64,000 nt of DNA. It comes from Anaerolineae bacterium. GTDB lineage: Bacteria; Chloroflexota; Anaerolineae; Aggregatilineales; Phototrophicaceae. Shown piece after piece: positions 50,309 through 52,453 of this stretch. Position 1 is the first letter of the stretch. The number at the start of each line of letters is the position of its first letter. Below the pieces are notes generated by a model. That model did no database searches and was not told the DNA's origin. It saw nothing but the letters and a program-made list of their open reading frames with translations. The position numbers and the translations under genes are program-made. The stretch covers positions 62,001-126,000 of the forward strand of contig JANWYT010000032.1 of the NCBI GenBank assembly GCA_025055175.1, written 5' to 3'.

Positions 50309-52453
50309 TCAGGGGCGCGCAAAGGCGATGAAGTCGCGTAGCTCATCCGTGCTTATGGGGCGGCCTGGCGTAACGATCCAATAGCTGCGATCCCACAGCG
50401 AGTCAGCGAGACGATCAGGGCTGACCGCTGCAACAGCCTGAGCGCTCAGGCTGAGCAGGGCGCGCATGTGGGCCACAGGCGGAGTTTCGCTGGGCGCAGA
50501 AGCGTACAGACTGACGACATCTCGGTATACATTTAGGTCATGGATGAGCCAGCCCTGTTTCGTCAGGTGAACTTCCAGGCTGCGCAGGATGGCCTGCATT
50601 TCGGCGTCCCGCAAAGGAGGCTGATTGGGATGTAGCAACCAGACAAAGGCCAGGGGTGCGACGGTCACAACATTGAGCTGAGAGTCGTCTTGTTCACCTG
50701 CCTCAGCTTGAGCGACAGGTTCAGCTTCGACGGATTGGATGGGGTTGGGCGGCGCGACGATCAGGGGCGGCGGCACGCTGGCCAAGACTTCGTGCAACAA
50801 GCGGGCATGATGTCGGATGGTGGAGACAGTTTGTTGGCCCGCGAACAGCAAGACCAAGGTGAAGGCATCCACTGTACGGATGGCGTAGAGCATGTAGAAT
50901 GCGCCGCTGGTCAACTCTATCGGCGTCATGCGCGCAGCTGTGCCATCTTCCAGCGGCTCAAGGGCGTGCGGCTTGATCTCCTCTAGCAGCGCAGCGGATA
51001 AAATACCACTGCTGCCGACGATCTGGCCCTCACGTACCAGCAGGCAGGCTTCGACCACCGTCTCTAGCGACAAATCGGTCAGGGCCAGGGCCACTTGAGC
51101 GCTTAGAGCCTGAGCATAGCGCACCGAGTCGACTTGGGCCAGCGCTTCATCGGGGACGGATGGCGGTGCGAGGAGCGCTTCTTCTTGCTGAGGTGCAGTC
51201 ACTTCCGTAGCCTGGACAGACTGAGGAGGTGGCTCTTGCTCAGACTGCTCAGCGCGAGCCTGATCGGCACGCAGCGCAGCAGCCAGCGCTTCCGCCAGCA
51301 GGGCGTCTTGGCGCGTCGGCGTGAGCGTCGTGCTGCTCAAATCAACGGGCAGGGGCGCTACAGCTTCTTCCGCAGCTTTGGGCTGTTCGCTTTCGGGCTG
51401 GGGACGCGGCTTGAGCGGATGAATGCGCGGCGCAGGATCGGCAGCGGACGCATCATCCGCTGGCGCGGGGGTCGAACGAGGGATCGGCTCAATGCGGTCG
51501 GTCGGCTGCTGCGCCAAGTCAACAGGCGCTTGAGCCTGGCCCTCATCGGGACGAACGTAGGTCTGCGAAGCAGTGTAGGTGGAGGGCGGCCCATCTAGTG
51601 GAGGCAAATCGGGCAGGAATTCTGGCTCACGCACATAGCGGCCCGAATCGTCTATCCAAGATGGCAGTGGCTTGACCAGGGCCTGGCCTTCTTGCAGGCG
51701 TTCCTGCACACGCTGGATGAACTTGGCCAGCGAGAAGCCCTGGGGTGGCGTGGGAGCGCTGGCAGTCTCCAGGGCTTCTTGTAGGATATGGTTAGCTAGC
51801 AGCTGGCGCGACGCAAGCGAAGGCAGCGTGCTAGTGGTCTCTTCGTCGTCGGCTTCATCCTGGCTGGTGAAGACGCGCGTCGGCTGCGTGCTGGACAAGC
51901 TCACCACCACGTCGCGCACTGTCACGCTCTCCTCAAAGGGCGGGATGGGTGGCTCAGCGGCAGCCAGCCTCTCGAACAGGCGGCTAGATTGCTCATCGCG
52001 GCGCTGCGCTTCAGCTTCATCTTCCACGCTTGGCGCTGGTGGCGAGAGCGAAGCGGCGCTGAGCTTGTGCGGAGCAGAGACGGAAGGCACAGGATCGGTC
52101 AGAATGCTCTGGATGAGGGGGATGAGCTGACGCGCGGCGATAGGCAGGTCGATCACAGCCTGGAGACGGAGGCTTTCTCGCAGGCCGCGCACCAACGGAT
52201 GGTTAGGCGCGACGATGATGGCGATGGCGGGGCGCGTCTGACGCGCTTGCTCTACGAAATTCTCTATGCTCAGGCCGTTAATAGTGCAGTCTAGCAGGAT
52301 CAAGTCGTAAGGCGCACGAGCTAGCTCGGCCAGAGCATCTTCTGGATCAGCAAAAGCGCTGGACAAGAACGAGCCGCTGCGCTCCAAGGCTTCTTTGAGT
52401 TTGATGCTGTGCGCCAGTTGGCGCACGACCAACATGATCCGCTTGACAGGCAC
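50309..52453 (-). CDS. Pseudo-receiver / roadblock-like / degenerate Y1-transposase-fold protein
   Basis: 714 residues. Residues 1-118 have the receiver fold with YDLILLDCTINGLS, but lack the acidic pocket (VVRQLAHS) and the Lys-Pro (IDLPIAAR). A disordered Pro/Ala/Gln/Glu linker follows (about 119-440), then a roadblock/LC7-like alpha-beta domain (about 445-575). The last 115 residues follow the layout of IS200/Y1 transposases: FVWLLHPNQPPL, YRDVVSLYASAP where HUH should be, and LWDRSYWIVTPGRPISTDELRDFI. Both metal histidines (Val646, Ser648) and the catalytic Tyr (Phe708) appear replaced. Probably a repurposed nucleic-acid or protein binder. An extended -10 lies at 52492-52500; polA follows. 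Confidence 0.72.
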   Translation of the reverse strand: MPVKRIMLVVRQLAHSIKLKEALERSGSFLSSAFADPEDALAELARAPYDLILLDCTINGLSIENFVEQARQTRPAIAIIVAPNHPLVRGLRESLRLQAVIDLPIAARQLIPLIQSILTDPVPSVSAPHKLSAASLSPPAPSVEDEAEAQRRDEQSSRLFERLAAAEPPIPPFEESVTVRDVVVSLSSTQPTRVFTSQDEADDEETTSTLPSLASRQLLANHILQEALETASAPTPPQGFSLAKFIQRVQERLQEGQALVKPLPSWIDDSGRYVREPEFLPDLPPLDGPPSTYTASQTYVRPDEGQAQAPVDLAQQPTDRIEPIPRSTPAPADDASAADPAPRIHPLKPRPQPESEQPKAAEEAVAPLPVDLSSTTLTPTRQDALLAEALAAALRADQARAEQSEQEPPPQSVQATEVTAPQQEEALLAPPSVPDEALAQVDSVRYAQALSAQVALALTDLSLETVVEACLLVREGQIVGSSGILSAALLEEIKPHALEPLEDGTAARMTPIELTSGAFYMLYAIRTVDAFTLVLLFAGQQTVSTIRHHARLLHEVLASVPPPLIVAPPNPIQSVEAEPVAQAEAGEQDDSQLNVVTVAPLAFVWLLHPNQPPLRDAEMQAILRSLEVHLTKQGWLIHDLNVYRDVVSLYASAPSETPPVAHMRALLSLSAQAVAAVSPDRLADSLWDRSYWIVTPGRPISTDELRDFIAFARP

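Follow-up and report, generated by a model that had tools for sequence, protein, structure and literature searches.

An inactivated IS200/IS605 TnpA domain retained in a receiver–roadblock protein of Anaerolineae that is often encoded next to polA

Introduction

On the TnpB side, IS200/IS605 elements have already given rise to a domesticated protein, TldR, which originated from nuclease-dead TnpB. This domesticated TnpB acts as an RNA-guided transcription factor (PMC13418256). It is the nearest parallel in kind to the protein described here, since both are inactivated IS200/IS605-derived proteins reused by hosts. However, TldR comes from TnpB, whereas the domain considered here comes from TnpA and lies inside a multidomain chromosomal protein. 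Here, a dead TnpA domain is kept as a selected host module in many genera. Our searches of the open literature on domesticated Y1/HUH proteins and on Anaerolineae turned up no account of the family, possibly because fusion proteins of unexpected length were left out of a survey of Y1 proteins (PMC6006769).

The protein is encoded in a stretch of 64,000 nt (JANWYT010000032.1, positions 62,001–126,000 of the forward strand), hereafter referred to as the window, within which all positions are counted. Its C-terminal domain resembles IS200/IS605 TnpA (PF01797; 2f4f, 2fyx, 2ec2, 2xm3, 2a6m) in fold, in an end-to-end profile alignment and at the W, Y, P and G positions, but it lacks the HUH motif, the Tyr and the Q ligand, is fused to a receiver and a roadblock domain, and is single-copy, acidic and found in conserved synteny. 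The roadblock domain shares its fold with MglB and the roadblock/LC7 proteins, but has no Pfam match, is fused to the receiver and the pseudo-Y1 domain, and has no linked mglA. Similarly, the receiver has the fold and the degenerate phosphorylation pocket of the aspartate-less receivers (PMC4395418) and RomR, from which it differs in keeping the Asp while lacking the acid pair, Thr and Lys.

Domain organization of the protein

The ORF has a GTG start and is uninterrupted (Table 1). The homologues are 546 to 1471 aa in length and the length of the linker is strongly variable; residues E167, P168, P171, T178, V179 and D181 of the linker were invariant in 22 proteins. The full-length AF2 model had a pTM of 0.29, so the arrangement between domains cannot be interpreted.

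Table 1. Coordinates of the features of the 714-aa protein and of the adjoining gene
Feature	Positions	Strand	Basis
714-aa protein: atypical receiver, long linker, roadblock/MglB-like domain, pseudo-Y1 domain	50309–52453	-	ORF, homologues, AF2 full length
Atypical receiver domain, residues 1–122	52088–52453	-	Z 19 to CheY-like receivers, residue check
D55, equivalent of CheY Asp57	52289–52291	-	Kept in 41/47 complete receivers of the window's order
Long linker, residues 123–444, probably disordered	51122–52087	-	pLDDT mostly <60
Linker motif 1, residues 159–182, LFERLAAAEPPIPPFEESVTVRDV, consensus F..LA.EEPP.P..EESGTVSDL	51908–51979	-	Conserved, linear
Linker segment 2, residues 240–282, FSLAKFIQRVQERL...PLPSW...EPEFLPDLP	51608–51736	-	Conserved
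Roadblock/MglB-like domain, residues 445–564	50762–51121	-	VIA Z 13.4 to MglB 6h5b
Linker from roadblock to Y1, residues 565–594, disordered	50672–50761	-	pLDDT <50
Pseudo-Y1 (IS200/IS605 TnpA-like) domain, residues 597–714	50312–50665	-	Profile, profile-profile, AF2 fold
HUH position, residues 646–648, V-V-S	50510–50518	-	Alignments to TnpA
Catalytic Tyr position, residue 708, Phe	50330–50332	-	Alignments, column counts
Third metal-ligand (Q) position, residue 712, Ala	50318–50320	-	Y---Q rule (PMC6006769), column counts
TnpA structural motif LWDRSYW retained, residues 686–692	50378–50398	-	W 56/56, Y 54/56 in the order
polA (DNA polymerase I), 946 aa	47444–50284	-	24 bp downstream of the 714-aa ORF, same strand

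The structure predicted for residues 1–122 was close to that of receivers (Z 19.1 to 3crn, 2.1 Å over 123 aa), and the match of the single protein to Response_reg (PF00072) was sub-threshold (Pfam E=0.0023). The residues corresponding to CheY positions 12, 13, 57, 87, 106 and 109 are V, R, D, P, V and L. An earlier note on this DNA had described a receiver without an acidic pocket or Lys. The receiver fold is borne out. Of the pocket, the acid pair (V/R), the Thr and the Lys (replaced by L) are missing, yet D55 supplies the phospho-acceptor Asp, and that description holds only in part.

The best structural match of residues 445–564 was the MglB of 6h5b, in complex with MglA (rmsd 2.7 over 111 aa); 3leq was matched at Z 12.6, roadblock proteins gave Z values of about 12.5, and Foldseek returned 6hjm (E about 1e-4). 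A roadblock-like domain had been anticipated at this position, and its fold is confirmed. No roadblock Pfam match was obtained for any of 26 members at E<=1, and the assignment rests on fold only.

Relationship of the C-terminal domain to TnpA

The single window protein remained below the curated cut-offs of both Pfam PF01797 (Y1_Tnp; E=0.025, residues 610–709) and NCBIfam NF033573 (IS200 transposase; E=9.4e-4, residues 601–709). PF01797 was matched by 26/26 family members (best E value 5.9e-11), and residues 597–714 align with IS200/IS605 TnpA over its whole length. The PDB search with a profile built from 31 domains retrieved eight distinct TnpA sequences, with E values from 1.6e-15 (2f4f) to 4.7e-8 (2vhg), the next match having an E value of 0.16. 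With hhalign, the pseudo-Y1 profile was aligned to 23 TnpAs of sister genomes with a probability of 98.6% (E=1.1e-15, 117 columns), as against 0.2% for the control profiles, made from the receiver and roadblock domains of the same protein. The AF2 model of residues 445–714 had a mean pLDDT of 80, with values mostly above 80 within the Y1 domain. Foldseek and VIA both ranked IS200 TnpA first, and VIA gave Z values of 13.7 to 2fyx (2.9 Å, 121 aa) and 13.2 to 2f4f (2.2 Å, 105 aa).

These analyses demonstrate that the C-terminal domain of the 714-aa ORF is a true homologue of the IS200/IS605 TnpA (Y1 transposase). The earlier note had proposed a Y1 fold for the last ~115 residues; the PDB profile, hhalign, Foldseek and VIA all point to TnpA, and the fold predicted for this region is that of Y1. 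In the PDB alignment, the family sequence 'edyvyl' lies under 'PDHIHL' of TnpA and 'eeiqrFie' under 'EVIKKYIE', which places the HUH and Tyr positions where that note had named them. The homologue alignment likewise lines up the motif positions with HUH and Tyr, and V646, V647, S648 and F708 are located as had been proposed.

Loss of the catalytic residues

The H-U-H motif was kept in 0/81 distinct receiver–roadblock–Y1 fusions collected across Anaerolineae; both His residues are present in 25/25 true TnpAs. Among 56 domains from the window's order, the first His position is occupied by Y in 36, F in 13 and H in 3, the second by Y in 39, S in 7 and H in 1, and the Tyr position by F in 51, Y in 3 and L in 2. 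The Q position, which in TnpA provides the third metal ligand four residues after the catalytic Tyr (PMC6006769), reads Q in 25, E in 12 and A in 12 domains; in the window protein it is A712. Together with the W (56/56; 24/24 in TnpAs) and Y (54/56) of the structural motif, P (55/56), the W of the first strand (55/56) and G (48/56) were kept in the order. As the replacements are conserved aromatics, the old active site has been remodelled in the window's order and has not simply drifted. The window protein, with V and S at the His positions, is itself a divergent member of the family. Estimates of dN/dS for the pseudo-Y1 domain were 0.02–0.21 (Nei-Gojobori, six close pairs), and the domain is under purifying selection.

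None of the catalytic features of Y1/IS200 TnpA (HUH, Tyr and the third metal ligand Q) is present in the window protein. Nor is the gene mobile, in the sense of multiple copies without a fixed locus, since there is one genomic copy and its neighbourhood is fixed across genera. The domain is related to TnpA, yet it is no transposase. The proposal of a domesticated, dead transposase is supported in that the fold is Y1 and the loss of both His residues is universal in the fusions. That the loss of H and Y is conserved could be sustained only in part: the His residues are gone in all 81 fusions and Tyr is kept in only 3/56 domains of the order, but the sister lineage f34 keeps it in 10/11.

The lineages differ at the former active site. 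Lineage f34 has Y-L-Q at the HUH position and f121 has HVE. In lineage f42, the fused Y1 domain has exactly one His (LVH, LIH, HVQ, FIH or YVH) and Tyr is lost. The domain has a median pI of 4.70 in the window's order (net charge of -6 per 100 aa), 8.70 in f34 and 9.13 in true TnpAs. The f42 loci (L132, L136, L140, L145, L147 and L193–L195) can be read as intermediates of catalytic decay. Proteins that lack a single His, the two His residues, or these two together with the Tyr make up a natural series for determining which parts of a Y1 fold are useful without chemistry, and it would be of interest to ask about a dimer platform, DNA binding and contact with the clamp.

Distribution and phylogeny

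A contig search with the single protein yielded no matches and the first alignment was too divergent to serve as a query; an alignment of six sequences gave matches. Relatives were found in 35/41 genomes of the window's order (31 aligned), with one copy of the fusion gene in the window's genome. The pseudo-Y1 domain could be aligned end to end across many genera. In a phylum-wide sample of 201 genomes, fusion-type matches were confined to the class Anaerolineae, the matching frames elsewhere being of TnpA size. In the tree of 98 domains, a branch with an SH-aLRT value of 99 separated 74 fusion domains from 24 TnpAs. This topology suits one single captured domain, but it was inferred from only 128 columns and includes long branches, so caution is required. 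In the roadblock tree, the split between Y1-bearing and Y1-lacking proteins was weak (support 66), and the history of gain or loss of the fusion remains unresolved.

The titles of the homologous loci refer to Anaerolineae, Chloroflexi, Aggregatilineales and similar taxa, with one contig titled Bacteroidetes (L105). The latter carries a gene of the Anaerolineae type together with polA and is probably a misassigned metagenome bin. Two apparent long Y1 frames were excluded. The one at L150 belongs to a true TnpA lying within a long open frame, and the one at L152 gave no match to the family.

Genomic context

Of the 79 fusion loci with enough sequence, 46 have polA on the same strand at a distance of no more than 800 bp, and another seven have it farther downstream, again on the same strand. 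In most loci, polA is the sole neighbour shared with the window. The linkage to polA that had been suggested from the window alone is thus common and extends to several families, but it is not universal, being absent within the examined DNA in a substantial minority of loci. The recurrent arrangement in the order is miaB, a conserved protein of 210 aa, a lipoprotein, the fusion gene, polA, argF and a TPR protein. This fixed neighbourhood reflects vertical inheritance and is unlike the behaviour of a mobile element. At one locus (L138), a receiver–roadblock gene without the Y1 domain overlaps the start of polA by 4 nt. The recurrent 210-aa neighbour carries the sequence 'YYPNKFARI..EAMEEIMG' (L116, L094, L035 and L048), and a gene read from its sequence as a CdaA-like diadenylate cyclase also recurs nearby in these loci.

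Possible function

The explanation that we favour, and consider probable although far from settled, is that a domesticated, dead Y1 domain has been kept as a non-enzymatic, probably dimeric protein-interaction module of a host scaffold protein; this function is inferred, in the absence of biochemical data. The roadblock (MglB) and Y1 (TnpA) folds are both dimeric in solved relatives. The C-terminal half of the protein is therefore most likely a dimeric protein-interaction platform, an inference made from models of single chains only. What the data do show is that capture of the Y1 domain dates to an ancestor within Anaerolineae or earlier, and that purifying selection has since maintained it as the final module of a host protein that is inherited vertically and usually linked to polA. 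That the domain works there without chemistry is inferred. The linker, with its conserved short motifs, and the receiver-fold domain may recruit partners to the platform. In the window's order, the active site has been turned into a cluster of aromatics (Y/F for the first His, Y for the second and F for the Tyr), and this cluster and the acidic nature of the domain suggest that it probably binds protein rather than ssDNA. In f34, where the domain is basic and Tyr is kept, DNA binding may persist. Any client can only be guessed at, with Pol I or the replication/repair machinery leading on gene linkage alone. The more specific proposal that much of Anaerolineae uses a dead TnpA dimer as the platform of a polA-linked signalling scaffold, coupling a degenerate receiver and a GTPase-type roadblock domain to replication/repair, is speculative and we regard it as doubtful.

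The earlier note had raised the possibility of a DNA/RNA-binding regulator, and the pseudo-Y1 domain might have retained the ability to bind, but not to cut, structured ssDNA or RNA such as hairpins and fork-like DNA. TnpA binds hairpins and IS608 TnpA binds fork-like DNA (PMC5371812), the f34 domain is basic with Tyr kept, and part of the K/R-rich helix segment 'LKRRSA' survives in the window's order (K 30/56). However, the domain is acidic in that order (pI 4.7, against 9.1 in TnpA), and the conserved basic residues of TnpA at columns 4 (K 8/12), 12 (K 21/25) and 14 (R 24/25) recur as K, K and R in only 3/56, 0/56 and 1/56 domains, column 12 being mostly R in the relatives and H in the window protein. 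A nucleic-acid-binding role is thus not favoured for the window's order, and overall we consider it conceivable but improbable. A role as a replication-linked accessory factor, coupling Pol I or the beta clamp to a signalling input through direct contact, would fit the frequent position of polA on the same strand and the gene overlap at L138. IS608 TnpA also binds the beta clamp (PMC5371812), and clamp and fork binding might be a reason for the link to polA, although there is no evidence of contact with Pol I. Gene order is weak evidence of contact, as argF, miaB and the TPR gene recur without an obvious link, and the conserved linker motifs, compared by eye only, are unlike the QL[SD]LF consensus, so this reading is unlikely on present evidence.

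The match of the roadblock domain to MglB in its complex with MglA (Z 13.4) leaves room for a polarity or GTPase module similar to MglB/RomR, in which the roadblock domain would bind a small Ras-like GTPase while targeting would fall to the receiver and pseudo-Y1 domains. There is a precedent in M. xanthus, where a single GTPase is acted on by both MglB and RomR, a receiver protein (PMC6785124). In the order, 36/41 genomes have a highly conserved gene for a small GTPase, but this gene also occurs where no fusion gene was detected (G012, G025, G032 and G038) and is not linked to the fusion gene. Co-occurrence is therefore uninformative and was dropped as evidence, and we consider this module unlikely. 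Finally, the resemblance might be put down to convergence, or to an inserted IS200 element that is decaying as a pseudogene, because the single protein falls below the Pfam and NCBIfam cut-offs and its catalytic residues are gone. These two readings were rejected as scarcely credible, since sequence profiles, profile-profile alignment and structure all lead to the same result, many genera carry the domain in a form that aligns over its full length, and dN/dS is far below 1.

If the scaffold reading is true, a host function has been built from TnpA, as a counterpart to the domestication of TnpB. In any case, the family is an unstudied, polA-linked protein of a large and mostly uncultured bacterial class, and genome annotation will tend to label such genes 'transposase' or to leave them unnamed.

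Related proteins

Other Anaerolineae have receiver–roadblock proteins without the Y1 domain, of about 255–370 aa (L133–L135, L137–L139, L141–L143, L146, L148 and L149). The Ras-like GTPase (L159:1405-2022, G000:C27), for which the best match per genome was mostly 76–94% identical in 36/41 genomes of the order, adjoins a protein read as PATAN/DUF4388-like. Free-standing f34 proteins of 144–182 aa (L184:1052-1486, L184:2234-2680, L185:873-1388 and L191:980-1528) have the Y1 fold signature without HUH (YFQ, HFE). They are pseudo-Y1 paralogues, two of them in tandem in one genome.
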